Shown here: positions 4,011-60,537 of the stretch, piece by piece
How positions within the stretch are numbered: position 1 is the stretch's first letter
Layout of the letters: each line of letters begins with the position of its first letter
Assembly: GCF_017744015.1 (NCBI RefSeq)
Contig: NZ_JAGHRA010000010.1
Coordinates: 62,001-126,000 of the forward strand
Direction of reading: 5' to 3'
Length of the DNA stretch: 64,000 bases
Source of the DNA: Paracoccus sp. R12_2
GTDB lineage: Bacteria; Pseudomonadota; Alphaproteobacteria; Rhodobacterales; Rhodobacteraceae
The notes under the pieces: model-generated
Seen by the model: only the letters and a program-made list of their open reading frames with translations
Database searches by the model: none
What the model was told of the DNA's origin: nothing
Program-made: the position numbers and the translations under genes

Positions 4011-4018
4011 TGACATTG

Positions 4019-4040
4019 CGGGGCGCCTTCGGGCGCCCCG
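4019..4040 (+). terminator. GC-rich stem-loop with UUCG loop after flagellin
   Basis: A perfect 9-bp stem (C plus GGGGCGCC at 4019-4027 against GGCGCCCC plus G at 4032-4040) closed by the very stable tetraloop TTCG at 4028-4031, beginning 8 bases after the flagellin stop. No U-tract follows. It could terminate or attenuate transcription into flaF, or protect the 3' end of flagellin mRNA. Confidence 0.6.
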
Positions 4041-4076
4041 TTCCAGCTACACCACACCACATCGGGAATCACGACA

Positions 4077-4843: not shown

Positions 4844-4850
4844 GATTGGC

Positions 4851-9100: not shown

Positions 9101-9447
9101 ACGCGCTGGCCGACGCCGCCCGCGATCTGGTCCAGATGGGCTTTTCGCTGGTCGCCACCTCGGGCACGGCCGATTTCCTGGGCCAGCACGGCGTCGCCAC
9201 GACCCGCGTGAACAAGGTCTATGAGGGCCGCCCGAACATCGTCGACCGCCTCAAGAACGGCGATATCGCCATGGTCCTGAACACGACCGAGGGCACCCAG
9301 GCCATCGCCGACAGCCGCGAAATCCGCGCCGTCGCGCTGTATGACAAGATCCCCTACTTCACCACGGCCGCCGGCAGCATCGCCGCCGTGGCGGCGATCA
9401 AGTCACGCGAGGAGGGGGAAGTCGGGGTGAGGAGCTTGCAGGCTTAG
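6109..9447 (+). CDS. carB: carbamoyl-phosphate synthase large subunit
   Basis: A 1112-residue CarB, which makes carbamoyl phosphate from bicarbonate, ammonia (delivered by the CarA glutaminase) and two ATP, for arginine and pyrimidine synthesis. The two homologous ATP-grasp halves are evident: [19 protein letters not shown] near the start and [19 protein letters not shown] near residue 580, each followed by the [10 protein letters not shown] / [15 protein letters not shown] strand. The last ~140 residues are the MGS-like allosteric domain. GGAGG precedes the ATG. carA is not in the window. The 3' end touches the AT-rich insert. Confidence 0.98.
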
Positions 9448-9448
9448 G
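9438..9448. repeat. left copy of a short imperfect direct repeat around the AT-rich insert
   Basis: GCAGGCTTAGG overlaps the last codons of carB. A 10-of-11 match, GCAGGCTGAGG, lies at 10968-10978 beyond the AT-rich genes. The pair could mark the ends of an insertion, but the match is short and could be chance. Confidence 0.3.
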
Positions 9449-9461
9449 TGACTAGTGTCAC
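9448..9461. repeat. inverted repeat directly after carB
   Basis: GTGAC-TAGT-GTCAC begins at the base after the carB stop codon. The 5-bp stem is too short for a confident terminator; it lies exactly where composition changes from GC-rich to AT-rich. Confidence 0.3.
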
Positions 9462-9532
9462 GTGTTGCTAGGAGCGCGAAACCGCGCTGACTGATTAAGT
9501 AACGGCACGAGATAAGTTTGCGGAGCGTCAGT

Positions 9533-10264
9533 ATGCGTCAAGCCACCAACTTTCGTTCCAACCTAAGTCTGCGACGAACCTTAATCGAACTTAACACTCA
9601 AGTGGACCATCTAAAGGATTGGATCGCTTTAAACGGCTCCTCCGATTCATTCTCAAGTCTGAGTAAGTCTTTTGAAGATCGCGATCATCTGCCACAGGTC
9701 GTTTTCGATATTCTTGTACTGGAAGATCGGCGTTTTTTCAAACATCGGGGGGCGGAGTTTAGATCAATCCCCCGCGGACTAAAGAGGCGAGTTCGGACCG
9801 GGAAGATTGGCGGGACTAGTACTATCGATCAACTACTAGTAAGGACCTGTATTCAAAGAAGCGAAAGAACGTTCGCAAGGAAGGCTCGTGAAACGCTGCT
9901 CGCTCTTCTGATTAATTTACACTGTGGAAAAGACGAGATTGCACTCTCGTTTGTTAATTCGGCCTATTTCGGGTCCCGAATGTATGGCGCTGACTCTGCC
10001 TCTATTCTGCTATTCGGATTACAGGCAATTCAATTGCGGGGCGACTATAGCGCATTTGTTGCAAGCTTGCTCCCATATCCCGTGCCGGTTAACGTTTCAA
10101 AGTTTGTTAGGACGGTGCATAGTTTTTCTCATCCATTCGACCTTCTTCGCGCATTCGAGGTCAGCAACCCTTGGTGGGTTGGCCGGGTTAGAGCGAGAAT
10201 GGAGTATCTCAAGGACCTCCGGCCTAAATATTCAGCAGCCTCTTTATTAGCCGCCAGTCGCTGA
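9533..10264 (+). CDS. orphan GT51 (penicillin-binding-protein type) transglycosylase-domain protein
   Basis: A 243-residue protein carrying the signature blocks of the GT51 peptidoglycan glycosyltransferase fold: LEDRRFFKHRG at 63-73 (catalytic Glu64), GGTSTIDQLLVRT at 93-105, RKARETLLALLIN at 116-128 (second Glu120) and KDEIALSFVNSAYFG at 133-147. Unlike MtgA or class A PBPs it shows no N-terminal membrane anchor, no signal peptide and no transpeptidase domain. The invariant HxGxD has Glu (HRGAEF), and the usual STITQQL is STIDQLL. ATG at 9533 follows CGGAGCG. Base composition and codon use (many A/T-ending codons, AGA, TTA) differ sharply from neighbours, indicating recent acquisition. Substrate and role are unknown. 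Confidence 0.72.
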   Translation: MRQATNFRSNLSLRRTLIELNTQVDHLKDWIALNGSSDSFSSLSKSFEDRDHLPQVVFDILVLEDRRFFKHRGAEFRSIPRGLKRRVRTGKIGGTSTIDQLLVRTCIQRSERTFARKARETLLALLINLHCGKDEIALSFVNSAYFGSRMYGADSASILLFGLQAIQLRGDYSAFVASLLPYPVPVNVSKFVRTVHSFSHPFDLLRAFEVSNPWWVGRVRARMEYLKDLRPKYSAASLLAASR

Positions 10265-10814
10265 TATATTCGTTCTTCGGATCCTTCCAGTCGTAAATCT
10301 TTTGGAGAGATCCTATTTTTTCTTCTGAGATCAGCCCCGATAGTTTCTTGCAATACTGAAAAACTTTTGTAGAAATGATAGAAAGCTCACCATCGAGCGA
10401 GGCGATCTGCATTTCTAAAGGAGCGTCCTGTTTAAGGAGTTTTACTACGAGATTTCCGTGCTCTACAATTTTGTTGTTGAGCTTGTTTTCGAAATAGAGA
10501 ACTTCGGAATATGACGTGTAGTAGAAGAGTCGGTATCTTATCTCGTTGTAGCTTTCCGAGTATAGCTTCACGGCGGCGCGATATTCGTCTATGATTCTAT
10601 CTTTATTAACATCAGATAAATTCAGCAGCAGGAACCTCTGTGCGACGATTCTCTTGTCAAAGGCTGTCGCAATGTCGCTAACTAGCGCCGTTGCCTCCTT
10701 AGTTTCTCGAACTCGAATTTCTTCCCTAGTTGCGCGTAGCCAGTGCATCCTTTGGAAGCGCGCGGTTACAAAAATGCCGACGAAAGCAAGGAGTGCCGCT
10801 AAGGGTATGTTCAT
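10224..10814 (-). CDS. unknown membrane-anchored coiled-coil-like protein
   Basis: A 196-residue protein of no family I recognise. Residues 3-20 (IPLAALLAFVGIFVTARF) form a single N-terminal transmembrane helix, followed by a positively charged patch and about 170 residues of charged, helix-prone cytoplasmic sequence with heptad character (IRVRETKEATALVSDIATAF, then YFENKLNNKIVEHGNLVVKL). AAGAGG lies 8 bases before the ATG at 10814. Its 3' end overlaps the convergent GT51-domain gene by 41 bases. Composition is AT-rich like that gene, so the two probably arrived together. A small membrane effector or regulator is conceivable; nothing shows it directly. Confidence 0.6.
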   Translation of the reverse strand: MNIPLAALLAFVGIFVTARFQRMHWLRATREEIRVRETKEATALVSDIATAFDKRIVAQRFLLLNLSDVNKDRIIDEYRAAVKLYSESYNEIRYRLFYYTSYSEVLYFENKLNNKIVEHGNLVVKLLKQDAPLEMQIASLDGELSIISTKVFQYCKKLSGLISEEKIGSLQKIYDWKDPKNEYISDWRLIKRLLNI

Positions 10815-10870
10815 GGCGCTTGCCTCTTAGGTCAACCTTTGCAAGCTTATGATCGCACGATTAATGGTGC

Positions 10871-10886
10871 TTGGCCAGGGGGCCAA
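10871..10886. repeat. inverted repeat upstream of the membrane-protein gene
   Basis: TTGGCC-AGGG-GGCCAA forms a 6-bp stem with a 4-base loop, 57 bases upstream of the ATG at 10814 and close to the right compositional border of the AT-rich insert. It could be an operator or a border element. Confidence 0.35.
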
Positions 10887-10967
10887 AGACTGGCCCGGGT
10901 AGCGCCAGCTCTGGCTGAGGAAATCCATCCGTCCGTCCGCGTGCAGTCACGACCCTGACAGCTTAGC

Positions 10968-10978
10968 GCAGGCTGAGG
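10968..10978. repeat. right copy of the short imperfect direct repeat
   Basis: GCAGGCTGAGG differs at one base from GCAGGCTTAGG at 9438-9448. Both copies also follow a GCTT within a few bases upstream. It lies where GC-rich composition resumes. Confidence 0.3.
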
Positions 10979-11023
10979 GGGCGTCAAACATTGATGCGCG
11001 CCGCGGCTGTCGCGTCTGGCCCC

Positions 11024-11551
11024 TCACACCTCCCCGATCCCGTTCCGCTTCTTCATCTCCTCCATCAGCGCCTGCCGCGCCACGGGGGACATCGTGGTGA
11101 CGCGCTGGGGCATCGGCACGCCGCCCTTGTCGCGCCAGCCCTCGGGGTTTTCGGGGCCCAGCATGTCGTCGCGCTTGCGCTGATACTCTCCGAACTCGGG
11201 GCGCGGGCCATCCAGCATCTGATCCTCGCGCCGGGCCAGGTAATCCATCGTCTCGCCGCCATGGATCAGCCCGGCCAGGCGCGCATGCATCCAGACCGAC
11301 ATCAGCCGGTTGACGCGCACCTGCCAGTCCGGCCCCATGCTGCGAAAGAATTTCACGATGTCCTCGTCCAGCCGCAGGGTGACGCGGGTCCTGGGTCGGG
11401 CGGGTTTCTCGCGGGCGATCTGGTGCCATTCCTCGGGGATCCGCATCCGGTCCAGGATGGTGCTGTGCAGGTCCCATTCCAGTTGCCGCATCGCGTCGGC
11501 CATGTAGTGGTAATTGACCCGCCGCGTCTCTTCCGCCTTGCCGATGCCCAT
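11024..11551 (-). CDS. BrnA-like ribbon-helix-helix protein
   Basis: A 175-residue protein whose middle (about residues 55-92: RVTLRLDEDIVKFFRSMGPD, then RVNRLMSVWMHARLAGLI) matches the ribbon-helix-helix DNA-binding domain of BrnA-type antitoxins. It is longer than classic BrnA, with about 50 residues before and 80 after the domain. No BrnT toxin gene lies adjacent: upstream is divergent serB and downstream the AT-rich insert. It may be a free-standing regulator; activity as an antitoxin is not supported by context. Confidence 0.65.
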   Translation of the reverse strand: MGIGKAEETRRVNYHYMADAMRQLEWDLHSTILDRMRIPEEWHQIAREKPARPRTRVTLRLDEDIVKFFRSMGPDWQVRVNRLMSVWMHARLAGLIHGGETMDYLARREDQMLDGPRPEFGEYQRKRDDMLGPENPEGWRDKGGVPMPQRVTTMSPVARQALMEEMKKRNGIGEV

Positions 11552-11615
11552 CGCCGTGCCGCCCCGTTGCTTGCCAGTGTCTGCCCGTGACGACGGTGGC
11601 GCGGGGTGGTTAACG

Positions 11616-11631
11616 CGGCCTTAACAGGCCG
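11616..11631. promoter_or_regulatory. inverted repeat in the brnA-like/serB divergent region
   Basis: CGGCCT-TAAC-AGGCCG, a 6-bp stem with a 4-base spacer, lies in the 191-base gap between the divergent starts. Given the RHH gene on one side it is a plausible autoregulatory operator; this is inference. Confidence 0.3.
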
Positions 11632-11742
11632 TGCGTTGTCGGTGTACGCGCTGTGCACGCCCGGTGCTGCGCGGGTGCACGGCTTGTGCGGCGGCGATCT
11701 TCGGCCTAGACGGCGTGCCGAGGATGCCCAAGGAAGACCGCC

Positions 11743-12621
11743 ATGCACACCGTCTCGCTGATCGCCGCGCCCACCGTCGCCAATCTGGAAAGCGCGCTGC
11801 TTGACGGGCTGGCAAAGTCCTGGGATGGCGGCAGCCCGCGCTGGCTGAACCCTGGAATCGCTGGGGAATTCGACATTCCGGCGCTGCCCGACGACGCCGA
11901 ACAGGTCTGGTCGGACCTGCAGACGATCGGCATAGACCTGGCCATTCAGCCCACCGCCGCGCGGCATAAATCGATCCTGCTGGCCGACATGGATTCAACC
12001 ATGATCGATCAGGAATGCATCGACGAAATCGCCGCCTTCGCCGGCGCCGGCCCCCGCGTCGCCGCCATCACCGCCCGCGCCATGAATGGCGAACTGAACT
12101 TTCACGAGGCGCTGGTCGAACGCGTCAACCTGTTGGCGGGATTGCAGGAATCGGTGATCGACGAAGTCCTGGCGACGCGCATCACGCTGGCGTCGGGCGG
12201 TCGCGAACTGGTCGCCACGATGCGCGCGAACGGCGGATATGCGGCGCTGGTCTCGGGCGGGTTCACCTCATTCACGGGCCCGGTCGCCGCCCGGCTCGGG
12301 TTTGATGAGCATCGTGCCAATACACTGCTGGCCGAAAGCGGGGTGCTGACCGGCCATGTCGCCCTGCCTGTGCTGGGCCGCGAGGCAAAGATCGAGGCTT
12401 TGCGCGACGTGGCCGTCGCGCGCGGTCTGACCCCCGACGACGTGCTTGCGGTCGGCGACGGCGCCAACGATCTGGGCATGCTGCAACTGGCCGGCACCGG
12501 CGTCGCCCTGCACGCAAAGCCCGCCGTCGCCGCGCAGGCGAAGCTGCGTATCAACCACGGCGATCTGACCGCGCTGCTGTATCTTCAGGGATACCGCGCG
12601 ACCGAGTTCGTCACGGACTGA
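11743..12621 (+). CDS. serB: phosphoserine phosphatase SerB
   Basis: A 292-residue HAD-superfamily phosphatase for the last step of serine biosynthesis. Motif I is LLADMDSTMID with the nucleophile Asp82 and Asp84, motif II LVSGGFTSF, and motif III/IV the VGDGANDLGML block. An N-terminal ACT-like region of about 75 residues precedes the HAD core, as in proteobacterial SerB. AAGGAAG precedes the ATG. Its 3' end overlaps the convergent nitronate monooxygenase-like gene by 11 bases. Confidence 0.96.
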   Translation: MHTVSLIAAPTVANLESALLDGLAKSWDGGSPRWLNPGIAGEFDIPALPDDAEQVWSDLQTIGIDLAIQPTAARHKSILLADMDSTMIDQECIDEIAAFAGAGPRVAAITARAMNGELNFHEALVERVNLLAGLQESVIDEVLATRITLASGGRELVATMRANGGYAALVSGGFTSFTGPVAARLGFDEHRANTLLAESGVLTGHVALPVLGREAKIEALRDVAVARGLTPDDVLAVGDGANDLGMLQLAGTGVALHAKPAVAAQAKLRINHGDLTALLYLQGYRATEFVTD

Positions 12622-49188: not shown

Positions 49189-50094
49189 CTAATGTCCAGC
49201 GCTCCAGCTGAGCGATTCGTATTTGCGGGTTGTGAAGTTGATCAGCAGGCCCAGCATCATCGCCGCAAGCGAAAACCAGATCGCATAATAGGGGTCGGTT
49301 TTCTGTGGCGTGTAGTTCACGAAGATATCGCCGCGGGCCTGGTCGATGATGTGGAACAGCGGATTCCAGATGAACCACGGCAGCATGAAGTTCGGCAGAA
49401 CATTTGCGACGAACATCTTGCCCGACGCGAACATGTTGATGCGCTGATAGACCGTGGTCAGCAGTTGCGACGCTTTCGGCGCCCAAGGCCGGATGCCCAG
49501 AAACACCAGCCCGACGCATGCGCCCGAAAACCATGCCTGCAGGTACATCGCCACGCAGCCTACCGGATGGGCCAGTGTCACCGGATTGAGCAGCACATGA
49601 TACAGTCCAAGAATGGCAAGGATGCTGATCGTCTGCCGATACAACACCGCCAAAGCCGCCGCGGCGATCAGCACCGCGGGATTAAGGGGCTCGTGCTGGG
49701 TAAGCCCTCCGGATACGGAATGGCTGCTGGCCACGGCGCCGACGGATTTCACATGCGTCATGAACAGGAAAATGCCCGACATGATGTACATCATGAAGTC
49801 GCCACGGATCGGCGATTGCCGGATGCCGATCACCAGGAAGATCAGCAGGAAAGCAGCCATGAACACGACGGTCTGCAGGATGGTCAGCAGCAGTCCGATG
49901 ACAGCGTTCCGGTGATCGGTCCGCAGGTTATAGACCGTCTGGTGATAGATCAGCGCCAGCGTCGTGCCGGCGGCTTGTATCAGGTTCTGGTTGCGGCGCT
50001 GGATAAACAATCTTCGGGTCCGTTCGTGGTATCCTTGCGGTGCTGCCCGTGTCGGGTTGGAAAGGCCGCGGAAGGACCGGAAAAGGTCGCGCAT
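49189..50094 (-). CDS. KpsM/Wzm-like polysaccharide ABC-2 permease
   Basis: A 301-residue membrane protein of the ABC-2 transporter family that exports capsular or O-antigen polysaccharides. About six hydrophobic segments follow a cytoplasmic N-terminal region; characteristic stretches include YIMSGIFLFMTHVKSVGAVA, LNPAVLIAAAALAVLYRQTI and MLPWFIWNPLFHIIDQARGD (residues ~230-250). No ATP-binding partner lies in the window. The start at 50094 is tentative, as no clear Shine-Dalgarno is seen. Confidence 0.85.
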   Translation of the reverse strand: MRDLFRSFRGLSNPTRAAPQGYHERTRRLFIQRRNQNLIQAAGTTLALIYHQTVYNLRTDHRNAVIGLLLTILQTVVFMAAFLLIFLVIGIRQSPIRGDFMMYIMSGIFLFMTHVKSVGAVASSHSVSGGLTQHEPLNPAVLIAAAALAVLYRQTISILAILGLYHVLLNPVTLAHPVGCVAMYLQAWFSGACVGLVFLGIRPWAPKASQLLTTVYQRINMFASGKMFVANVLPNFMLPWFIWNPLFHIIDQARGDIFVNYTPQKTDPYYAIWFSLAAMMLGLLINFTTRKYESLSWSAGH

Positions 50095-50195
50095 GACGGG
50101 TGCTTGCCCAAGCCTTTCATGGCGATCATAAGGGGGCGCGGCCGGTCGCACAATCGTGCGGTGGCGTCGGGGCGACAGATGGGAAGGAAAACTGG

Positions 50196-50993
50196 ATGCA
50201 ATTTGATCGACTGACCACCGAGATGCGCCGTCTCGCCCTTCAGGCCGGGGCCCGGATCATGGAGATCTACGAGGCCGAGGACTTCGAGGTTCGCGCGAAA
50301 TCGGACGATTCGCCTGTGACCGAGGCTGACGAGGCCGCAGATGCGCTGATCGCCGCCGGGCTGCGAGAGGCATTTCCCGATCTTCCGCTGGTCACCGAGG
50401 AGCAGGCGGCGACGCATGGTCAGGCGGTTTCCACGTTCCTGATCGTCGATCCGCTGGACGGGACCAAGGAATTCGTTCAGCGCCGCGGCGATTTCACCGT
50501 GAATATTGCCTATGTCGAAAACGGTGTGCCGATTCGCGGCGTTGTCTATGCGCCTGCCAAGGGACGGCTTTTCTACACCACCGCCGATGGCCGCTCGGTA
50601 GAAGAGCGCGGCCCGTTCGGCGAGCAGCCGGGTGAAACGCAGTCGGTCGGGGTGAACCCGATGCCCGACAATCGCGGGCTGATGGTTGTCGCCTCGAAGT
50701 CGCATCGTGACGAGGCGACGGATACCTATATCGCGCAGTACGGAGTGCGCGACATGACCAGTGCCGGATCTTCGCTGAAGTTCTGCCTTGTGGCGACCGG
50801 CGAGGCTGACCTGTATCCGCGTCTTGGCCGCACGATGGAATGGGATACGGCTGCAGGTGACGCGGTGCTGCGCGGCGCCGGTGGCGAGGTCGTGCGTTTC
50901 GACGATCATACACCGCTTGCCTATGGAAAGCCCGGTTTCGAGAACCCGTTCTTCATCGCCTATGCTCCGGGCGTTCTGCTGGCGAAGGCCTGA
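50196..50993 (+). CDS. cysQ: 3'(2'),5'-bisphosphate nucleotidase CysQ
   Basis: A 265-residue lithium-sensitive-type phosphatase that converts 3'-phosphoadenosine 5'-phosphate (PAP) to AMP. The metal-site motifs are PLVTEEQAA, DPLDGTKEFVQRRGDF and the late MEWDTAAGDAVLRGAGG. GGAAGGA precedes the ATG. PAP is the by-product of sulfotransferases, so it fits the sulfotransferase gene about 7 kb downstream. Confidence 0.93.
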   Translation: MQFDRLTTEMRRLALQAGARIMEIYEAEDFEVRAKSDDSPVTEADEAADALIAAGLREAFPDLPLVTEEQAATHGQAVSTFLIVDPLDGTKEFVQRRGDFTVNIAYVENGVPIRGVVYAPAKGRLFYTTADGRSVEERGPFGEQPGETQSVGVNPMPDNRGLMVVASKSHRDEATDTYIAQYGVRDMTSAGSSLKFCLVATGEADLYPRLGRTMEWDTAAGDAVLRGAGGEVVRFDDHTPLAYGKPGFENPFFIAYAPGVLLAKA

Positions 50994-50998
50994 TCCGG

Positions 50999-51799
50999 AT
51001 GTCGGTCCTTGTCGTCATACCCGCCCGCCACGCCTCGACCCGCTATCCTGGCAAGCCGCTTGTCGATCTGACAGGGGCGTCGGGCAGCAAACGCAGCCTG
51101 ATCCGGCGCAGCTGGGACGCCGCGATGACGGTCACCGGCGTGGATCAGGTCATCGTCGCGACGGACGATGACCGCATTCGGGACCACGCGGAAGGCTTTG
51201 GCGCACAGGTGGTCATGACATCCACCTTGTGCCGCAACGGAACCGAGCGTTGTGCCGAAGCGGTTGCCAATCTTGGCCTGTCGCCCGAGATCGTCGTCAA
51301 CTTGCAGGGTGACGCGCCGCTGACGCCGGCATGGTTCGTCGAGGACCTGATCGCAGGGCTGCGCGCCGATGCGCGGGCCGATGTCGCGACGCCGGTGTTG
51401 CGTTGTTCCGGGCGGATGCGGGCCGATCTGATCGCAGATCGCATGGCTGGTCGGGTCGGTGGCACGACCGCCGTCTTTGGCCATGACCGGCAGGCGCTGT
51501 ATTTTTCAAAGGAAGTCATCCCCTTCGCGCCCGGTGAATTCGGCGATGACCAGCCAAGCCCGGTGTTTCACCATGTCGGCGTCTATGCCTATCGGCCCGC
51601 CGCGCTGACCGCTTATGCGGATTGGCCCGAAGGGCCGCTGGAACAGCTGGAAGGACTTGAGCAGTTGCGTTTCCTTGAACGGGGTCGGCGCATCCTGTGT
51701 GTCGAGGTCGAAGCGCGTGGACGACAATTTTGGGAACTGAACAATCCCGAGGATGTTGCGAGGATCGAAGAGATGATGCGCGAGATGCGCATCGAGTGA
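50999..51799 (+). CDS. kdsB: KdsB-like 3-deoxy-manno-octulosonate cytidylyltransferase
   Basis: A 266-residue CMP-Kdo synthetase activating Kdo for LPS core or capsule linker. Motifs are VVIPARHASTRYPGKPLVDL, VATDDDRIRDHAEGFG, TSTLCRNGTERCAEA, VVNLQGDAPLTP and FHHVGVYAYRPAALTAY. Compared with E. coli KdsB, QGDxP reads QGDAP and the loop ALYFSKEVIPFAP is slightly longer. It begins 5 bases after cysQ. Confidence 0.88.
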   Translation: MSVLVVIPARHASTRYPGKPLVDLTGASGSKRSLIRRSWDAAMTVTGVDQVIVATDDDRIRDHAEGFGAQVVMTSTLCRNGTERCAEAVANLGLSPEIVVNLQGDAPLTPAWFVEDLIAGLRADARADVATPVLRCSGRMRADLIADRMAGRVGGTTAVFGHDRQALYFSKEVIPFAPGEFGDDQPSPVFHHVGVYAYRPAALTAYADWPEGPLEQLEGLEQLRFLERGRRILCVEVEARGRQFWELNNPEDVARIEEMMREMRIE

Positions 51800-51982: not shown

Positions 51983-52879
51983 ATGAGTCGCAAGGTAACA
52001 AAGGCCATTTTCCCCGTGGCCGGTCTGGGGACACGCTTTCTTCCCGCCACGAAAAGCATCCCGAAAGAGATCATGACGCTGGTGGACAGGCCGTTGATTC
52101 AATATGCGATCGACGAGGCGCGTGCCGCAGGCATCAAGGAATTCATCTTCGTCACCTCGCGCGGCAAGGGTGCGCTTGAAGACTATTTCGACCATGCGCA
52201 CGAACTGGAATCCAGCCTGAAGAAATCCGGCAAGACCGAGCTTCTGGACGTGTTGCGGTCGACGAACATGGAATCGGGTGCCATCGCCTATATCCGGCAG
52301 CACAAGGCGCTTGGCCTTGGCCACGCCGTATGGTGTGCCCGCCGTCTGGTCAACGAGGATGAACCCTTCGCGGTGATTCTGACGGATGACGTCATCATGG
52401 GCGAGCCACCCTGCCTTCAGCAGATGATCGAAGCCTATCGGGAGACCGGCGGCAGCATGGTCGCCACGATGGAAGTCGCGCCCGAAAAGGCGCAGTCCTA
52501 TGGTGTGCTGGATGTCAGCGAGGACATGGGCGCCATCGTCAAGGCCCGGGGCATGGTCGAGAAGCCAGCACCGGGAACCGCGCCCTCGAATCTTGCAGTC
52601 ATCGGTCGCTATATCCTTGCCCCGACGGTCATGCAGAACCTCAACAAGCTGAAGGCCGGTTCCGGTGGCGAGATCCAGCTGACCGATGCCATCGCGGACG
52701 AAATTGCCGCCGATCGGGGCGTGTATGGCCTGCGCTTCCGCGGGCAACGGTTCGATTGCGGCTCGAAGGCAGGGTTCCTGCAGGCGACCGTCGCCTTCGG
52801 GCTGGAGCGGGACGAATTGCGGGAAGAGTTTTCCGAATATCTCAGCGATGTCGTCACCGCGCGGCGCGCGGCGGAGTAA
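51983..52879 (+). CDS. galU: UTP-glucose-1-phosphate uridylyltransferase GalU
   Basis: A 298-residue nucleotidyltransferase making UDP-glucose. Signature KAIFPVAGLGTRFLPATKSI, then EIMTLVDRPLIQYAIDEA and later GRYILAPTVM and FDCGSKAGFLQATV. AAAGG precedes ATG 51983. It lies 3 bases upstream of galE and is probably the first gene of the glycan operon. Confidence 0.97.
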   Translation: MSRKVTKAIFPVAGLGTRFLPATKSIPKEIMTLVDRPLIQYAIDEARAAGIKEFIFVTSRGKGALEDYFDHAHELESSLKKSGKTELLDVLRSTNMESGAIAYIRQHKALGLGHAVWCARRLVNEDEPFAVILTDDVIMGEPPCLQQMIEAYRETGGSMVATMEVAPEKAQSYGVLDVSEDMGAIVKARGMVEKPAPGTAPSNLAVIGRYILAPTVMQNLNKLKAGSGGEIQLTDAIADEIAADRGVYGLRFRGQRFDCGSKAGFLQATVAFGLERDELREEFSEYLSDVVTARRAAE

Positions 52880-52882
52880 GCC

Positions 52883-53869
52883 ATGACAGGGAAGGTGCTC
52901 GTGACCGGCGGCGCCGGTTATATCGGCTCGCATGCCTGCAAGGCACTGGCGGCGGCAGGACTTGTCCCGGTGACGTTCGACAATCTGTCGACGGGCTGGC
53001 GAGATGCGGTCAAGTTCGGCCCGCTGGTCCAGGGCGATCTGTTGGACCGTGCCGCGCTGGATAGGGCATTCGCTGAGCATCGGCCCGTCGCCGTTCTGCA
53101 TTTCGCGGCGCTCAGCCAGGTGGGCGAGGCAATGGCCGAGCCTGGCCGATACTGGCGCAACAATGTCGCAGGGTCGCTGAACCTGATCGAGGCGGCTGTC
53201 GCGGCGGGATGTCTGGATTTTGTCTTCAGTTCGACCTGCGCGACCTATGGTGACCGCGACGGCGAGGTTCTGGATGAGGATACGCCTCAAGTACCCCTGA
53301 ACGCCTATGGCGCCTCCAAACGCGCGATCGAGGATATGCTGGTCGATTTTGGCGCGGCCCACGGCTTGCGGCATGTCATTTTTCGCTATTTCAACGTCGC
53401 GGGCGCCGATCCCGACGCCGAGATCGGAGAATTTCACCGGCCCGAGACGCACCTGATCCCGCTGATTCTGGATGCGGTGGATGGAAAGCGCACGGCGCTG
53501 ACCATTCACGGCACCGACTATCCGACACCGGACGGAACCTGCATTCGCGACTATGTGCATGTCATGGATCTGGTTGATGCCCATGTTGCCGGGCTGGAGT
53601 GGCTGCGTTCTGGCAAGGGCAGCCAGGTGTTCTGCCTTGGAACCGGCGATGGGTTTTCGGTGCGCGAAGTCGTCGATGCGACCAGACATGTCACCAATCG
53701 GACGGTTCCGATGCAGGATGGGCCGCGCAGGGGCGGCGATGCCGTGAAGCTTGTGTGCGGCAGCCAGCGGGCGAAGGCGGAACTGGGCTGGCATCCCGGG
53801 CGCTCGACCATGAAGCAGATGATCGGCGACGCTTGGCGGTGGCACCAGAACGGCCACTACGAGCGCTGA
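52883..53869 (+). CDS. galE: UDP-glucose 4-epimerase GalE
   Basis: A 328-residue SDR-family epimerase interconverting UDP-glucose and UDP-galactose. NAD motif VTGGAGYIGSHACKAL at the N-terminus; catalytic SSTCATYG and YGASKRAIEDML (YxxxK); YFNVAGADPDAEIGE and DYPTPDGTCIRDYVHVMDL are GalE hallmarks. It starts 3 bases after galU and ends 1 base before the first glycosyltransferase. Confidence 0.96.
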   Translation: MTGKVLVTGGAGYIGSHACKALAAAGLVPVTFDNLSTGWRDAVKFGPLVQGDLLDRAALDRAFAEHRPVAVLHFAALSQVGEAMAEPGRYWRNNVAGSLNLIEAAVAAGCLDFVFSSTCATYGDRDGEVLDEDTPQVPLNAYGASKRAIEDMLVDFGAAHGLRHVIFRYFNVAGADPDAEIGEFHRPETHLIPLILDAVDGKRTALTIHGTDYPTPDGTCIRDYVHVMDLVDAHVAGLEWLRSGKGSQVFCLGTGDGFSVREVVDATRHVTNRTVPMQDGPRRGGDAVKLVCGSQRAKAELGWHPGRSTMKQMIGDAWRWHQNGHYER

Positions 53870-53870
53870 G

Positions 53871-54920
53871 ATGGAACGGGGCCGGCTGCGCAGGGCATGG
53901 TCGGCCTATCGGCTGCGCTGGAAGCGGCGTGAACTGATCTGGCGCGCCATCAGGTCGGGCCGCGAGCTGTCACCGCTTGCCGACCGCACCGCCGCGATTC
54001 GCAGCGATGACATTCTGTTATTCGCCACGATGCGGAACGAGGCGCGGCGTTTGCCCGAGTTCATGGATCATTATCGCGCGCTTGGCGTGCGTCATTTCCT
54101 GATAGTGGACAACGACAGCAGCGACGGTTCAGCCGATCTGCTTCGCGGGCAAGGCGATGTGTCGCTGTGGCGTGCGACCGGCAGTTACCGCGACAGCCGG
54201 TTCGGCATGGACTGGCTGGGTGCCTTGCTGTTCCGCCATGGCACCGGACATTGGTGCCTGACGGTGGATCTGGACGAGTTGCTTGTCTATCCCGGCTGCC
54301 AGACGCGGGATCTGGCGGAGTTGACCGTCGATCTGGCCTCGCGGCGCGCCGAGGCGATGGGTGCGCTGATGCTGGACCTCTATCCACGCGGGCCGCTGGG
54401 TCGTCCGGACGCGACAAAAAAGGCCGTGCTGACCGAACAACTGCCGTTCTTCGATGCGGGTCCATATCGCTGTCGGATACAGCAACCCAAACGTAATCGC
54501 TGGGTGCGGGGTGGGCCGCGCGAACGGGCGTTCTTCGCCGATGATCCAAGGCGCGCGCCGACGCTGAACAAGCTGCCGTTGGTGCGCTGGCAGCGCGGCT
54601 ATGTCTATGTCAACTCGACCCATTCCATGCTGCCGCCGCGGCTGAACGATCTGTATGACGGGCCGGGTGATCCGCGGCTGTCAGGCGTGTTGCTGCACGG
54701 AAAATTCCTGCCCGAGATCGTTGCGAAATCCCAAGAGGAACTGACGCGACGCCAGCATTTTGCCGATCCTGACGCCTATGCAGACTATCATCGCGCCCTG
54801 ACCGATGCGCCGGTGCTGTGGCATCCGGGTTCGGTGCGTTTTGACAATCCTGCACAATTGCAGGCGCTGGGGCTGATGAGTGCAGGCGATTCCGCAAAGG
54901 CAAACACCCACAAGGGGTGA
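53871..54920 (+). CDS. family 2-like glycosyltransferase, copy 1
   Basis: A 349-residue GT-A enzyme of the Glyco_tranf_2_4 type. ATMRNEARRLPEFMDHYRAL and VRHFLIVDNDSSDGSADLL form the nucleotide-sugar domain; the metal-binding DXD is GHWCLTVDLDELLVYP (Asp133, Asp135). It aligns collinearly with the next gene over the first ~140 residues and beyond, so the pair is a tandem duplication. It begins 1 base after the galE stop. Donor and acceptor sugars are unknown. Confidence 0.85.
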   Translation: MERGRLRRAWSAYRLRWKRRELIWRAIRSGRELSPLADRTAAIRSDDILLFATMRNEARRLPEFMDHYRALGVRHFLIVDNDSSDGSADLLRGQGDVSLWRATGSYRDSRFGMDWLGALLFRHGTGHWCLTVDLDELLVYPGCQTRDLAELTVDLASRRAEAMGALMLDLYPRGPLGRPDATKKAVLTEQLPFFDAGPYRCRIQQPKRNRWVRGGPRERAFFADDPRRAPTLNKLPLVRWQRGYVYVNSTHSMLPPRLNDLYDGPGDPRLSGVLLHGKFLPEIVAKSQEELTRRQHFADPDAYADYHRALTDAPVLWHPGSVRFDNPAQLQALGLMSAGDSAKANTHKG

Positions 54921-55005
54921 AAACTCTTGCCAAATCGCGGCTGAAACCGCATGTCGGGGCCATGATCCTGAAGGCCAGACTTCCTGCAAGAACGGGCATT
55001 TCCAG

Positions 55006-56034
55006 ATGACACCTCTTGGCCGTCTTCCGGTGCCCGACCGCATTCGCCGTAGGCTGGAAAGGCAATATCTGATCGGTCGCGCGGTTCGCCGACGCAGGGT
55101 GCTGCACGCGGTCGCCGACCGGACCGCGCTGATCCAGCCAAAGGATATCCTTGCCTTCGTCACCCAGCGTAACGAACGAATTCGCCTGCCTTATTTTCTG
55201 GATTACTATCGCAATCTGGGCGTGCGGCATTTCCTGTTCGTGGATAATGCCAGCGACGACGGCAGCAGTGATTTCCTGCGCGAACAGGCTGATGTTTCGC
55301 TGTGGTGGACCGACTCGAGTTACAAGCGGCATCGTTTCGGCATGGACTGGATCAACTGGTTGCTTCTGCGATATGGGCGCGGACATTGGTGCCTGACCGT
55401 TGATCCGGACGAATTCCTGATCTACCCGCATTGCGACACGCGTCCGCTGGACGCGCTGACGGACTGGCTGGATGCGTCCGGACGGCCGTCCTTTCCAGCG
55501 ATGCTTCTGGACATGTATCCCAAGGGCGGCATAGAGGATCAGATCTATCGCGAAGGTCAGGACCCCTTCGAGATCGCACGCTGGTTCGATCCCGCCAACT
55601 ATTCGATCAGCAAGAACCAATATCTCGGCAATCTCTGGATCCAGGGCGGTCCCAGAACGCGGGCGTTCTTTTCCTATGATCCCCTGACAGGGCCGGCACT
55701 GAACAAGATACCTCTGGTCAAGTGGCACTGGCGATATGCCTATGTCAGTTCGACCCATATGCTGCTGCCGCGTGGCCTGAACCATGTCTATGACGAGAGC
55801 GGCGGAGAAATGGCGTCGGGAAGTCTGCTGCACGCCAAGTTCCTGTCCACCTTCGCCCAGAAATCCGCCGAAGAGCTTGACCGACGCCAACACTATGCAA
55901 ACAGCAAGGAATACCGGGCGTACCATTCGGGCATGCAGCGCGGAACCACGTTGTGGTGCAGCGAATCGCGTGAATATCAGGATTGGCGGCAGCTGGAGGA
56001 TCTGGGGCTGATCAGCCGGGGTAACTGGGCATGA
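55006..56034 (+). CDS. family 2-like glycosyltransferase, copy 2
   Basis: A 342-residue paralogue of the preceding enzyme with the same layout: VTQRNERIRLPYFLDYYRNL, VRHFLFVDNASDDGSSDFL and the DXD in GHWCLTVDPDEFLIYP at the same residues (133, 135). The copies differ in the region around residues 165-220, where acceptor specificity usually lies. ATG 55006 matches the paralogue's N-terminus; a longer frame overlaps the preceding gene. The stop overlaps the next ATG by 4 bases. Confidence 0.85.
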   Translation: MTPLGRLPVPDRIRRRLERQYLIGRAVRRRRVLHAVADRTALIQPKDILAFVTQRNERIRLPYFLDYYRNLGVRHFLFVDNASDDGSSDFLREQADVSLWWTDSSYKRHRFGMDWINWLLLRYGRGHWCLTVDPDEFLIYPHCDTRPLDALTDWLDASGRPSFPAMLLDMYPKGGIEDQIYREGQDPFEIARWFDPANYSISKNQYLGNLWIQGGPRTRAFFSYDPLTGPALNKIPLVKWHWRYAYVSSTHMLLPRGLNHVYDESGGEMASGSLLHAKFLSTFAQKSAEELDRRQHYANSKEYRAYHSGMQRGTTLWCSESREYQDWRQLEDLGLISRGNWA

Positions 56035-57719
56035 GCTTTCAGGTGCGCCTTGGTGTGGTCCTGCTGTGCCACGCCGACCTGGATGTGGCCGCGCGAATGG
56101 CGCGAATATGGGCCGAAGGCGGTGCGCGTGTGGTGATCCATGTCGATGCCAAGGTTCCTGAATCTCGCCTTGGACCGATGAAGGCGGCGCTGGCCGGGCT
56201 GGATGGGGTCATGTATTCGCGCCGCCATCGGTGCGACTGGGGCCGGTTCAACCTTGTCCGGGCAACCCAGGACGCTGCCGAGGCGCTTCTGCATGAATAT
56301 CCCGACATCACGCATGTCTATCTGGCCTCGGGGGCATGTCTGCCGCTGCGGCCCATCGCCGACTTGATTGCCTTTCTGGCCGCCGACCCGCAGCGAGATC
56401 ACATTGAAAGTGTCAGCGCGCACGAAGTTGGCTGGGCGGTCGGAGGACTGAACGAGGAAAGGTTCACGCTGTACTTTCCGTTCGACTGGCGACGTCAGCG
56501 TTGGCTTTTCGACCGTTTCGTCGAATGGCAACGTCGGCTTGGGATTCGCCGTCGGCTGCCGCGCGGTGTGGCGCCGCATCTGGGTGCGCAGTGGTGGTGT
56601 CTGACAGCGGAAACACTACGCCTGATCCTGAACGACCCTCGGCGCGCCGAGTTCGATCGCTATTTCCGGCTTAGCTGGATCCCTGACGAAAGCTACTTCC
56701 AGACGCTGGTCCGGCGACATTCGGTCGATGTCGAAAGCCGTTCACTGACTCTGGCTCAATTCGACCACCAGGGGCGCCCGTATCAGCTGTATGACGATCA
56801 TATTCGCCTGCTTGAGGAGTCGCGCTGCTTCGTTGCCCGCAAGGCATGGCCGCGTGCGGCAAGATTGATGGCACATTTCCCGCGGCCCATGACGGGGCAC
56901 GCCGATATGTCCCCGCCACAGCCTGCGCGGTTCCAACGAATGATCAATCGCACGGTTATGCGGCGAGTTCTGGGGCGGCCGGGGCTTTACATGCAAAGCC
57001 GTTATCCGCGAAAGGACGCCGAGAACGGCAAGACCTCGGCGCCCTATGCCGTGTTTCAAGGCTTTTCAGACGTGTTTCCCGAATTCGAGACATGGTTGAC
57101 CGATCGGGTTTCGGGCGATGTGCATGGCCATCTATTCGGCCCCGAGGGTGTCGAGTTTGCCGGGCGCCCCGAGATCGGGCCGGGGGCCATCTCGTCGAAT
57201 TCCATGTTGCGCGATCACGACGCGCAGGGTTTCCTGACGGCGCTGATCCGCATCACCACGCGGATGCAGATCTTCCAGTTCAGTCCGCGCGACAACCAGG
57301 TCCTGAACTGGTTCATCGCAACCGACCCGAATGCACATCTGATTGTCGTGACCGGCGCGTGGATGCTGCCCTTGCTGCAATCGGGCATGCCATTCGACGA
57401 TATCCGGCGCGTCACAGCGCTGTTGCAACGCGGCGAGATCGAACAGCTTGACGTGCTGAATTCGGTATGGGTCAAGGCGCGGGTTCAGGTCCATGACCTC
57501 AGTGACTTTCTTTCCCGTCCGCTGGCCCTGCTGGACGAGGCCGTCCGACAGATCGACCCGCAGGCCGCACCGGTCACAGACCTTCCCAGGATGCGGGATC
57601 TGACGGGGCTGGATGACCTGTTGCGCCGGCTGCGCAATTCGGGACTGCGGCCTCGTCTGACCGGCGATGGGCTGCCCTTGACGAATATCGACGACGGCCA
57701 AAGGAGAAGCGCCGAATGA
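56031..57719 (+). CDS. GT14-type (core-2/I-branching-like) glycosyltransferase with DUF5928 C-terminal domain
   Basis: A 562-residue protein. Residues ~1-290 resemble bacterial beta-1,6-N-acetylglucosaminyltransferase-like GT14 enzymes: GVVLLCHADLDVAARMARIW, VVIHVDAKVPESRLGPM, YLASGACLPLRPIADLIAFL and LGAQWWCLTAETLRLI, SWIPDESYFQTLVRRHS. The remaining ~270 residues form a separate domain (DUF5928-like) with GHLFGPEGVEFAG and FSPRDNQVLNWFIATDPNAH. It is coupled by 4-base overlaps to both neighbours. Confidence 0.83.
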   Translation: MSFQVRLGVVLLCHADLDVAARMARIWAEGGARVVIHVDAKVPESRLGPMKAALAGLDGVMYSRRHRCDWGRFNLVRATQDAAEALLHEYPDITHVYLASGACLPLRPIADLIAFLAADPQRDHIESVSAHEVGWAVGGLNEERFTLYFPFDWRRQRWLFDRFVEWQRRLGIRRRLPRGVAPHLGAQWWCLTAETLRLILNDPRRAEFDRYFRLSWIPDESYFQTLVRRHSVDVESRSLTLAQFDHQGRPYQLYDDHIRLLEESRCFVARKAWPRAARLMAHFPRPMTGHADMSPPQPARFQRMINRTVMRRVLGRPGLYMQSRYPRKDAENGKTSAPYAVFQGFSDVFPEFETWLTDRVSGDVHGHLFGPEGVEFAGRPEIGPGAISSNSMLRDHDAQGFLTALIRITTRMQIFQFSPRDNQVLNWFIATDPNAHLIVVTGAWMLPLLQSGMPFDDIRRVTALLQRGEIEQLDVLNSVWVKARVQVHDLSDFLSRPLALLDEAVRQIDPQAAPVTDLPRMRDLTGLDDLLRRLRNSGLRPRLTGDGLPLTNIDDGQRRSAE

Positions 57720-59113
57720 TCCACGGTTTCCGCAGCTTCGTGATTTTCGCCGAGATGCGCACCGGCTCGAACCTGCTGGAGGCAACACTGAACCGGCTGA
57801 AGAAGGTCACCTGCTTCGGAGAGGCTTTCAATCCCTATATGATGGGTTGGCCGGACAAGGACGAAATGCAGGGAATCACCCGCGACGAGCGCGAGGCAGA
57901 TCCCATGCCGCTGTTGCGGAAACTGACCGACAAACCCGGACATTTGCCAGGTTTCCGCTATTTCCACGATCATGATCCGCGTGTGTTCGATGCGATCATG
58001 GACAATCACGCCTGCGCCAAGATCGTGCTGACCCGCAACCCCCTGGACAGCTATGTATCGACGCGGCTGGCACGGGAAACGAACCAATGGAAGCTGAACG
58101 AGACGGAAACCCCGATTCCCGCCCGAACCACCTATGACAGCGCCGAATTTCATCGGATGCTGTCCGATGTCGAGGCGTTTCAGCGCCGGATCATCCACCG
58201 TCTGCAAATCAGCGGGCAGTCCGCGTTCTGGCTGGAATATGACGATCTGCGCGATCCGGAGGTGATGACCGGTTTGCTGCATTGGCTGGGCCGGCGCGAT
58301 CTGGACAAGGTTGATGCGGCCCGCGATCAGGTGCCGCAGAACCCGCGCGAGTTGGCCGACAAGGTCGGCAACTTCGATCAGATGCGGACGGATCTGGCCA
58401 AGCTTGACGTGTTCGGACTGCACAGGATTCCCAATTTCGAACCTCGTCGTGGCCCTGCCGTTCCCAGCTACATTGTCTGCGATGCAGGGGCAGGGCTGTT
58501 GCATCTGCCGGTTCAAGGCGGCCCGGTCGAGATGACGCATGGCTGGCTGCGGGCGCTGGGACCGGTGACCGGCGAGCATACGCAGAACATCCTGCGGCAG
58601 TGGAAACGTGATCGCCCCGGGCATCGCAGCTTTGCGGTGCTGCGCCATCCTCTGCACCGTGCCTGGGACGCCTTTCTTCATCTTCTGACCAACGCCCGGC
58701 CTGAGCTGCGGCAATTGATGCGCGATGTCCATCGCGTGGCGCTGCCCGAGGATGCGGCGTTGGCCGAGCTGGGCGATGATCAAAGCGCGGCGTTGTTCCG
58801 CGATTTTCTTGGCTTCCTGCGCCGCAATCTCAACGCCCAGACGACGTTGCCCACCCATCCGCATTGGGCGTCACAGACCGAGGTTCTGGCAGGATATTCC
58901 CGCTTTACGCAGCCCGACATGCTGGTCCGAGAGTCGCGCCTTGCCGAGGACCTAGGGTTTCTGTGCCGGCAGGTGGGCATAGAGGAGGCAAGGCTGGACC
59001 GGATCGCCGCCGAGGCATGGCCCGCATTCCTTGATGAACCCGATCTGGTCGCAGCGGCAAAGTCGGCCTACTTGCGCGACTATATCGCCTTCGGGTTCCC
59101 GGACAGGCCCTGA
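57716..59113 (+). CDS. NodH-like carbohydrate sulfotransferase
   Basis: A 465-residue sulfotransferase. The PAPS 5'-phosphosulfate loop is FVIFAEMRTGSNLLEATLN (residues 8-26) and the 3'-phosphate motif is AKIVLTRNPLDSYVSTRL (101-118). A second motif of this type, SFAVLRHPLHRAWDAFLHL (305-323), occurs in the C-terminal half without an obvious second PAPS loop, suggesting a fused degenerate sulfotransferase-like domain. It is the last gene of the glycan operon; PAPS would supply sulfate and CysQ would remove PAP. Confidence 0.82.
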   Translation: MIHGFRSFVIFAEMRTGSNLLEATLNRLKKVTCFGEAFNPYMMGWPDKDEMQGITRDEREADPMPLLRKLTDKPGHLPGFRYFHDHDPRVFDAIMDNHACAKIVLTRNPLDSYVSTRLARETNQWKLNETETPIPARTTYDSAEFHRMLSDVEAFQRRIIHRLQISGQSAFWLEYDDLRDPEVMTGLLHWLGRRDLDKVDAARDQVPQNPRELADKVGNFDQMRTDLAKLDVFGLHRIPNFEPRRGPAVPSYIVCDAGAGLLHLPVQGGPVEMTHGWLRALGPVTGEHTQNILRQWKRDRPGHRSFAVLRHPLHRAWDAFLHLLTNARPELRQLMRDVHRVALPEDAALAELGDDQSAALFRDFLGFLRRNLNAQTTLPTHPHWASQTEVLAGYSRFTQPDMLVRESRLAEDLGFLCRQVGIEEARLDRIAAEAWPAFLDEPDLVAAAKSAYLRDYIAFGFPDRP

Positions 59114-59148: not shown

Positions 59149-60537
59149 TCAGGCTTTCAGCAAAGCCGCAAGTTCAGCCTGTTTTTCATTGACCAGTGCC
59201 TCGTCCCCATCGGCCTCAAGGTTCAGCCGCACGACGGGCTCGGTATTGGACTTCCGCAGGTTGAAGCGCCAGTTGCCGAAGTTCAGCGACACGCCGTCCA
59301 GATCGTCGCGACTTTCTGCCTGCGACTGATAACGGTCGATCAGCCGGGCGATCGCCGCGTCGGGATCGTCGATGTGATAGTTCGTCTCGCCCGAGGATGG
59401 ATAAAGCCGCATCCGCTCCGACAGCAGTTCTGCCAGCGTCTTGCCCTTGCGCGACAGCAATTCGACCATCAGCAGCCAAGGGATCATCCCGCTGTCGCAA
59501 AAATAGAAGTCGCGGAAATAGTGATGGGCGGACATCTCGCCGCCATAGATCGCGCCAACATCGCGCATCTTGCGTTTGATGAAGGCGTGCCCGGTCTTGG
59601 AGACCACAGCCTCGCCGCCCGCTTCTTCGATCATCGCGCGGGTGTTCATGATGACGCGCGGATCATGGACGATCTTCTCGCCAGGTGACTTTTCCAGGAA
59701 CGCCGCGCCCAGAAGCCCCACGATGTATTCGCCCGGGATGAAGCGACCATTTTCGTCGAAGAAGAAACACCGGTCGAAATCGCCGTCCCAGGCCACCCCC
59801 AGGTCGGCGTTCTCGGCCTGCACCTTCTGGACGGTGGGCGGCTGGTTTTCCGGCAGCAGGGGATTCGGAATGCCGTTGGGAAAGCTGCTGTCGACATCAT
59901 GGTGCATCCGCACGAAGGTCAGCGGGGCACCGCGCCGTTCCAGTTCGGCGGCAATCGCGTCGAAGGTCGGACCCGCGGTTCCGTTGCCGGCGTTGACCAC
60001 GATCTTCATGGGGCGCAGCGCATCGATCTGGACGAAGTCGGCCATGGCTTTCGCGTATTCTGCGCGCGCGTGGCTGAAATCGGTGACACTGCCCTTGGTC
60101 GCGGCCTTGAAATCGCCGCCCGTTGCCAGCGCGACGATCGGCGGCAGTTCGGTTGCCGGGTCCAGCGGCGCCGAGCCGCGTCCAACGATCTTCATGCCGT
60201 TGTAGTTGATCGGATTGTGTGACGCCGTCACCTCGATCCCGCCATCGGTATCGTGAAAGCCGGTGTGGAAATAGACCTCTTCGGTGCCGGCCAGTCCCAA
60301 GTCCAGCACGTCGGCGCCACCATCGGTCAACCCCTCGATCAGCGCATCGGCAAGCTGGGGCGAGGTTTCGCGGCTGTCGCGTCCTACCACCACCCTCTTT
60401 GCGTCACGGGCCTGGGCAAAGGCGCGACCGATGCGGTAGGCAACGTCCTGATCCAGATTCTTGCCCAGTTCGCCGCGGACATCGTATGCCTTGAAGCAGG
60501 TGATCTCTCGGTGGCCAAGGCTGGTCGTGTCGGTCAT
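59149..60537 (-). CDS. manB: phosphomannomutase/phosphoglucomutase ManB
   Basis: A 462-residue alpha-D-phosphohexomutase of the CpsG/ManB type. The N-terminal FKAYDVRGELGKNLDQDVAY, the phosphoserine loop EVTASHNPINYNGMKIV, the metal loop GVAWDGDFDRCFFF and the sugar loop GGEMSAHHYF are clear, with the phosphate-binding RKSNTEPVVRL at the end. It interconverts mannose- or glucose-6-P and -1-P, feeding GDP-mannose or UDP-glucose. ATG 60537 follows GGGGGGA. Convergent with the sulfotransferase gene. Confidence 0.93.
   Translation of the reverse strand: MTDTTSLGHREITCFKAYDVRGELGKNLDQDVAYRIGRAFAQARDAKRVVVGRDSRETSPQLADALIEGLTDGGADVLDLGLAGTEEVYFHTGFHDTDGGIEVTASHNPINYNGMKIVGRGSAPLDPATELPPIVALATGGDFKAATKGSVTDFSHARAEYAKAMADFVQIDALRPMKIVVNAGNGTAGPTFDAIAAELERRGAPLTFVRMHHDVDSSFPNGIPNPLLPENQPPTVQKVQAENADLGVAWDGDFDRCFFFDENGRFIPGEYIVGLLGAAFLEKSPGEKIVHDPRVIMNTRAMIEEAGGEAVVSKTGHAFIKRKMRDVGAIYGGEMSAHHYFRDFYFCDSGMIPWLLMVELLSRKGKTLAELLSERMRLYPSSGETNYHIDDPDAAIARLIDRYQSQAESRDDLDGVSLNFGNWRFNLRKSNTEPVVRLNLEADGDEALVNEKQAELAALLKA

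Follow-up and report, generated by a model that had tools for sequence, protein, structure and literature searches.

A conserved glycosyltransferase-sulfotransferase block in Paracoccus, a proposed part of a dispersed capsule-like pathway of Rhodobacteraceae

We analyzed a stretch of 64,000 nucleotides (hereafter the window) from Paracoccus sp. R12_2 (contig NZ_JAGHRA010000010.1, positions 62,001 to 126,000 of the forward strand), focusing on a run of glycosyltransferase genes that ends in a sulfotransferase gene, gt2a-gt2b-gt14-stf. The genome comprises 4.07 Mb in 51 contigs, and its nearest named relative found is Paracoccus salsus, with 78% identity between the sulfotransferases (Stf). The run belongs to a block, kpsM | cysQ ... 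gt2b-gt14-stf, that recurs across Rhodobacteraceae. Judging from gene content, we find it somewhat probable that this block supplies the permease and the glycan-building enzymes of a dispersed, ATP-binding cassette (ABC) transporter-dependent, capsule-like pathway in many members of the family. The observations behind this proposal are family-level gene identities, a conserved gene order, and the co-occurrence of unlinked parts.

The genes gt2a (53871-54920), gt2b (55006-56034), gt14 (56031-57719) and stf (57716-59113) lie on the forward strand and, like galE before them, run from ATG to TGA without an internal stop, at the coordinates given in an earlier note on this DNA. As that note had held, most junctions are tight: galE and gt2a are separated by 1 base, and gt2b/gt14 and gt14/stf each overlap by 4 bases (ATGA), with the 85 bases between gt2a and gt2b as the exception among the four. 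GalE does head the cluster, but at 52883-53869 it falls just outside the start of 53871 assigned to it. Both GT2 proteins match Glyco_tranf_2_4 (PF13704; E 7.6e-33 for gt2a and 8e-34 for gt2b) and are 49% identical over 329 residues (48% in the alignment with other loci), in keeping with their description as paralogs; gt2b is 59-85% identical to 18 aligned gt2b rows of other loci. The gt14 product combines a GT14 (Branch) domain (PF02485, E 2.9e-14) with a DUF5927 tail (PF19349, E 9e-98), and stf encodes a predicted sulfotransferase of the type using 3'-phosphoadenosine 5'-phosphosulfate (PAPS), with a PF03567 match at residues 302-425 (E 2.7e-07) and a PF13469 match at residues 10-126 that stays below the cut-off.

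On the same strand, cysQ, kdsB, galU and galE precede this run. CysQ (50196-50993; TIGR01331, 267.8 bits, cut-off 228.8) is a 3'(2'),5'-bisphosphate nucleotidase that removes 3'-phosphoadenosine 5'-phosphate (PAP); this identity and that of the sulfotransferase, both proposed earlier, hold up as family-level profile matches. The kdsB-type synthetase (50999-51799; NF003950, 349.7 bits, cut-off 234) would make CMP-activated 3-deoxy-D-manno-oct-2-ulosonic acid (Kdo), and this gene gave one match in the genome, the only copy found. GalU, a UDP-glucose pyrophosphorylase (51983-52879), scores just below its cut-off (TIGR01099, 324.2 against 326.8 bits), and GalE, a UDP-glucose 4-epimerase, well above (TIGR01179, 397.5 against 262.3 bits). 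On the opposite strand, divergent from cysQ and 3.7 kb upstream of gt2a, with kdsB among the genes in between, lies a gene for a KpsM/VexB-like ABC-2 polysaccharide export permease (49189-50151). It matches NF050053 (E 2.4e-10) and NF011723 (E 8.9e-10), both below the curated cut-off, and had no match in the Pfam scan; its start codon is uncertain, many homologs aligning only from about residue 45. The earlier note had remarked that no flippase is present, which is true between 53871 and 59113 but misleading, since this permease was overlooked. Its suggestion of a protein, lipid or lipopolysaccharide (LPS) core acceptor, drawn from the lack of an exporter, is undercut by the permease in the block and by the kps loci elsewhere in the genome. 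Pfam and NCBIfam scans covered ten frames between 49 and 61 kb of the window; no Wzx flippase or Wzy polymerase was recognized among these, a search that did not extend to the remaining genome.

The block is conserved. Stf-like matches (E 0.001) were obtained in 245/295 genomes of the family, the weak ones possibly being other sulfotransferases, and gt14 adjoins stf in all 30 loci fetched by the Stf search, our own included. We then compared 80 named loci (49 from Paracoccus and 31 from other genera), all fetched with Stf as bait. Both gt2b-gt14 and gt14-stf are adjacent in 79/80 of them, so the gene order, whose conservation had been proposed as a check, is not a chance arrangement, and kpsM is next to and divergent from cysQ in 65 of the 66 loci where both were found (Paracoccus 42/43, others 23/23). 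The 4-base overlap of gt2b and gt14 is kept in 41/48 Paracoccus and 18/27 other loci measured, and that of gt14 and stf in 27/48 Paracoccus loci; outside Paracoccus the spacing of gt14 and stf is 0 to 12 (30/30). An apparent gt14-stf fusion in locus L064 proved to be a frame effect. In counts that include loci truncated at contig ends, galE was found in 46/49 Paracoccus and 15/31 other loci, and manB in 25/49 and 0/31. The manB/cpsG-like phosphomannomutase gene of the window (59149-60516, reverse strand, convergent with stf; NF011943, E 1.4e-170, 568 bits against a cut-off of 801, scanned as a longer frame reaching 60804) is thus probably outside the conserved block, and of the sugar supply by galU, galE and manB that had been proposed, the manB part apparently does not belong to the conserved set. 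Locus L095 illustrates the variation: a GT4 gene replaces gt2a, and kdsB and galU are separated by a GT2 gene. Given the adjacencies and this variation, the constant core is gt2b-gt14 with stf, together with kpsM | cysQ. One further locus (L109, 2724-4154), from a record titled as a Cytophagaceae metagenome-assembled genome, carries a Rhodobacteraceae-like gt2b-gt14-stf (Stf 46% identical) and is probably mislabelled or from a mixed bin.

The remaining parts of a putative ABC-dependent export system lie elsewhere in the genome. The genes kpsT-kpsE-kdsA stand on contig C47 (locus 2) and kpsS-kpsD-kpsC on contig C22 (locus 3), neither with a kpsM adjoining, and the window kpsM has neither set beside it. 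KpsS and KpsC score 172.6 and 217.6 bits against PF05159 (cut-off 20), KpsC with four matching stretches, and the KpsD-type protein encoded between them scores 59.4 bits against PF02563 (cut-off 28). Among sampled relatives, which include one genome lacking the window block (G069), kpsS-kpsD-kpsC occur together in 10/10, and in 12 sampled kpsE loci kpsT adjoins kpsE in all, kdsA stands beside them in 8, and a match to the window kpsM in none. In a genome assembled as one contig (G013), gt14 lies at 1.25 Mb, a second type of GT14 gene (GT14-DUF5928, described below) at 1.79 Mb, kpsS at 2.13 Mb, and kpsE at 2.54 Mb.

To compare the occurrence of these loci we used a panel of 50 chosen family genomes: 31 with a strong Stf match, 3 with a weak one, and 16 with none, taken from 20 of the 50 Stf-negative genomes after G008, G033, G068 and G096 had been left out for completeness < 95%. 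Presence was scored at a gt14 match of > 400 residues, kpsM E 1e-15, and kpsE of the C47 type E < 1e-90. The kpsM and long gt14 genes occur in the same 35 genomes (the 31 strong, the 3 weak, and G057), and both are missing from the other 15. C47-type kpsE is present in 35/35 of the former and 1/15 of the latter (G069), and exactly the same holds for kpsS with a nearby kpsC frame of 645-983 residues giving two matches (Fisher p 1.6e-11 for 35/35 against 1/15, without tree correction). A second GT14 match, confined to the first domain, follows the same pattern (34/35, not in G074, against 1/15, again G069; partial in G063); where checked, in our genome and ten sampled ones, this is the DUF5928 type. 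Weaker kpsE relatives (E > 1e-35) are more widespread in the panel, and other PF05159 genes are present in G083, G094 and G101. In G069 the window block is thus missing although three other loci are present, possibly through an assembly gap, the genome being in 300 contigs. Co-occurrence with PAPS synthesis genes, proposed earlier as a check, turned out to be uninformative: APS (adenosine 5'-phosphosulfate) kinase, also present in our genome, was found in 34/34 panel genomes with an Stf match against 14/16 without (Fisher p 0.098).

These counts could reflect shared descent only, with old family genes serving separate glycans and lost together from reduced or divergent genomes. The panel was chosen and is not random, and a tree for the 39/50 panel genomes that share one kind of APS kinase gene, the ATP sulfurylase-APS kinase type, has weak support; it was built from frames chosen by similarity, with a simpler model and an unsettled bootstrap. 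On the best tree, the eight genomes without kpsM and gt14 need 6 changes, of which 2 fall on well supported branches; kpsE changed alike in 1.8 of 2 pairs on average, and the sign test is not significant (p 0.5). The association is therefore strong in counts and not demonstrated to be independent of descent, which weighs against the proposed pathway. Nevertheless, unlinked loci match near perfectly across the panel, the genomes lacking them are spread over several places of this weakly supported tree, and the parts complement one another, with kpsM in the block and kpsT-kpsE and kpsS-kpsD-kpsC elsewhere without a kpsM. We regard shared descent alone as very unlikely, the least probable of the alternatives considered here.

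Since kdsA and kdsB fall in two of the loci, a single dispersed pathway is the most economical reading. In ABC-dependent capsules, KpsS and KpsC make a beta-Kdo linker on phosphatidylglycerol (PMC12220298, in the part available), and the product is exported by KpsMT with KpsE and KpsD (PMC11041684, likewise in part). By analogy, KdsA (locus 2) and KdsB (window) would supply CMP-Kdo, from which KpsS and KpsC (locus 3) would place beta-Kdo residues on a lipid of the phosphatidylglycerol type. GT2b, GT2a and the GT14-DUF5927 enzyme would then add sugars, partly from the UDP-glucose and UDP-galactose made by GalU and GalE; Stf would transfer sulfate from PAPS to the glycan, CysQ destroying the by-product PAP; and export of the product would fall to the window KpsM together with the KpsT and KpsE of locus 2 and the KpsD of locus 3. 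We infer in this scheme the common product of the parts, its Kdo-lipid anchor, its sulfation, the identity of its sugars, and its chain length. Because no polymerase was recognized and gt2b-gt14 is constant over the loci, the pathway may yield a short sulfated glycan that is conserved, and not a type-specific polymer.

Several observations weigh against this pathway. The window permease reaches 40.8 bits on the KpsM model NF050053, whose cut-off is 300, and is outscored there (99.6 bits) by another permease of the same genome on contig C51. The gene for that KpsM-like permease is divergent from kpsE-kpsT (L124, G000:C51:60000-77000, 8100-12473), and the set adjoins a gene resembling UDP-sulfoquinovose synthase (NF041015, below cut-off); contig C12 has a third permease match, a weak one. 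Since the better fit to the KpsM model is that of the C51 permease, the pairing of the window KpsM with the C47 KpsT-KpsE is suggested by co-occurrence and not by similarity. The C47 KpsE, despite E 1.6e-53 on TIGR01010, falls below the NCBIfam cut-off, as do the C47 KpsT, whose best match is VexC, and KpsS on the KpsS model. Furthermore, Stf is missing from the locus in 3 of the 35 genomes (G057, G074 and G178) and divergent (29% identical) in G056, so sulfation is predicted not to be obligatory in the pathway. The G056 protein has 391 residues and no Pfam match at E 0.001; its gene (L128, G056:C100:53000-70000, 10602-11777) stands at the expected position, in a stretch of unusually low third-position GC. 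With no polymerase among the scanned frames, the "capsule" may be an oligosaccharide, and the pathway as a whole is read from genes, with no known product.

The single kdsB must also serve LPS, and this is where the main rival explanation starts: the glycosyltransferases would extend the LPS core or O-chain, Stf would sulfate it, and kdsB would simply belong to LPS Kdo synthesis. Several non-Paracoccus loci have ptsN, hpf and the lptA/B/C region 3' of stf or gt14 (from translations read by eye), and the Kdo-lipid product proposed above is not a known one. Yet the block co-occurs with kpsM, kpsE and kpsS/kpsC, for which we know of no role in LPS core synthesis, and its cysQ adjoins kpsM in nearly every locus where both were found. 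On balance, decoration of LPS seems unlikely, although it is the strongest of the alternatives.

The GT14 enzyme bears on a further alternative, in line with acceptors named in the earlier note: the product would be a sulfated protein glycan or glycolipid that does not pass through KpsMTE, and the neighboring kpsM would serve another polymer. The Branch domain of the GT14 enzyme spans about residues 1-290 and its DUF5927 tail residues 270-549; PF02485 (53.7 bits here, cut-off 23.4) and PF19349 both match 40/40 aligned gt14 rows at E 0.001. In the AlphaFold2 model (mean predicted local distance difference test score, pLDDT, 85.3; predicted template modelling score, pTM, 0.79), the first domain resembles core 2 beta-1,6-N-acetylglucosaminyltransferase (C2GnT, 3otk_A; Z 26.8, root mean square deviation (rmsd) 2.7, 272 aligned) and human xylosyltransferase 1 (6eja_A; Z 24.8, rmsd 3.2, 269 aligned), in a fold comparison listed for residues 1-297. 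By sequence profile, xylosyltransferase 1 (E 3.4e-9) comes ahead of C2GnT (E 0.0044). Both of these enzymes act on proteins, Stf is like a glycolipid enzyme in its N-terminal half (see below), and the window permease matches the KpsM model weakly, all of which would suit such a product. However, the acceptor cannot be read off from a similar fold, kpsM and gt14 occur in the same 35/50 genomes, and no other polysaccharide set was seen beside kpsM in the ten frames scanned, most other frames of the window being unscanned. A glycolipid or protein glycan therefore appears quite unlikely to us, more so than decoration of LPS.

Within the proposed capsule-like pathway, the GT14 step would probably add a beta-linked sugar without a metal. 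P218-D219-E220 is invariant in the 40 aligned rows, and in GT14 enzymes a glutamate is the base and the DxD motif has been lost (PMC7185993, from the accessible part of its text). The GT14 label of the earlier note is correct, but DUF5928 was rejected for this enzyme: PF19350 had no match at E 0.1, the tail being DUF5927, and DUF5928 belongs to another GT14, encoded by a gene on contig C11. That gene is divergent from a Sulfotransfer_2 gene (L186, G000:C11:121000-129000, 3960-6513) whose product matches PF03567 over profile positions 3-252 of 252, and the pair is present in 10/10 sampled family genomes, with 69-82% identity between the sulfotransferases. We tentatively raise the possibility, which we hold to be rather less probable than the dispersed pathway as such, of a family-wide Kdo-lipid-anchored sulfated glycan, made by a fixed enzyme set whose genes are spread over at least four loci. 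The set would include two GT14 enzymes like C2GnT and xylosyltransferase, both with a neighboring sulfotransferase: Stf for GT14-DUF5927 and a Sulfotransfer_2 enzyme for GT14-DUF5928. Such a glycan would resemble a capsule but be conserved instead of varying by type.

Stf itself is predicted to be a PAPS-type sulfotransferase. Its RTGSN motif (residues 15-19) and R107, S112 and S115, part of a TRNP..S..S motif, are invariant in 44/44 rows of the alignment, so the motifs predicted to bind PAPS, a property whose lack would have spoken against the earlier interpretation, are present; we take RTGSN to be the P-loop of the 5'-phosphosulfate-binding motif and the arginine and serines to be the 3'-phosphate-binding motif. 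The window protein scores 31.4 bits against PF03567 (Pfam cut-off 22), and at E 0.001 PF03567 matches 16/44 rows and PF13469 9/44. In its AlphaFold2 model (mean pLDDT 87.6, pTM 0.51), the N-terminal domain (residues 3-232) has a fold like that of Stf0 (1tex_D; Z 12.6, rmsd 4.0, 198 aligned; Foldseek E 1.8e-4), in a fold comparison listed for residues 4-238. By sequence profile Stf matches PDB 9VKI (E 4e-11), a structure not among the 50 fold matches listed for the model. In the C-terminal half, the match to Sulfotransfer_2 begins at profile position 80, which leaves unmatched the region where the first phosphate-binding motif is usually found; this half may be a degenerate second sulfotransferase-like domain. 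A comparison of Stf with GT14-DUF5927 in hhalign found no relation (probability 0.12%). The SalA aminolipid pathway was dropped as an identity for Stf, the word "sulfotransferase" having no count in the available part of PMC8319176. Taken together, the observation in the earlier note is partly confirmed, and its interpretation partly supported.

Two further features were observed in passing. In Celeribacter litoreus (L099, 16305-20738), two more sulfotransferase-like genes, one of which was Pfam-scanned, stand beside a second set of permease, ATPase and KpsE-like genes (read by eye), a few kb from the block. In the window, GC content drops to 0.56 and 0.48 at 9001-11000, against mostly 0.60-0.69 elsewhere; of the open reading frames there, 9518-10264 encodes a Transgly domain (PF00912), and no Pfam match was obtained at E 0.001 for 10224-10814 or 10947-11477.

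Rhodobacteraceae occur widely in the sea and live on algae and other surfaces. If the proposal is true, the sulfated surface glycan that they share would be a common candidate for the binding of phages and gene transfer agents, for adhesion and for biofilm, and DUF5927 and DUF5928, both of "unknown function" in Pfam, would gain a role. A vaguely defined cluster is in this way recast as a testable pathway: does the sulfotransferase cluster feed an exported Kdo-lipid glycan?

Among known enzymes, core 2 beta-1,6-N-acetylglucosaminyltransferase and xylosyltransferase 1 share with gt14 the first domain and the Pro-Asp-Glu site, whereas gt14 differs by its DUF5927 tail. Stf0 (PDB 1TEX) is like Stf in the fold of the N-terminal half (17% identity) and in the PAPS motifs, and the NodH-named LPS sulfotransferase (PDB 9VKI) in the profile match of that half; Stf differs from both by its second sulfotransferase-like half and by low identity. 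Among known systems, the group 2/3 ABC-dependent capsules of E. coli K1/K5 (Kps) are matched in the Paracoccus genome by a KpsM-like permease, candidate KpsT and KpsE proteins, a KpsD-like protein, KpsS, a multi-domain KpsC and the supply of CMP-Kdo. In Paracoccus, by contrast, the genes are distributed among three or more unlinked loci, the glycosyltransferase genes gt2b and gt14 are shared across the family instead of being type-specific and have a sulfotransferase coupled to them, several members fall below NCBIfam cut-offs, and the pathway is known from genes alone. The capsule genes of the Rhodobacter capsulatus gene transfer agent system were set aside because they are described, in the available part of PMC10218006, as serving wzc/wzb/wza export. 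A survey of the open-licence literature, judged by titles and the starts of abstracts, gave no recognizable description of this cluster or of its dispersed arrangement. Closest in kind are the sulfated capsules of Cobetia marina KMM 1449 (PMC11766843) and Vibrio sp. KMM 8419 (PMC11641403), which, in the accessible parts of these papers, likewise combine an ABC transporter, PAPS genes and sulfotransferases; Cobetia also has kpsSC and a stated role for CysQ. They differ in having one locus of about 70 and 80 genes, respectively, with rhamnose genes, in the reported lack of kpsC in Vibrio, and in product structures that have been solved. Because Cobetia pairs kpsSC with sulfotransferases, a sulfated ABC-exported capsule is a kind already known, and it is the dispersed arrangement in Rhodobacteraceae that is new to us.

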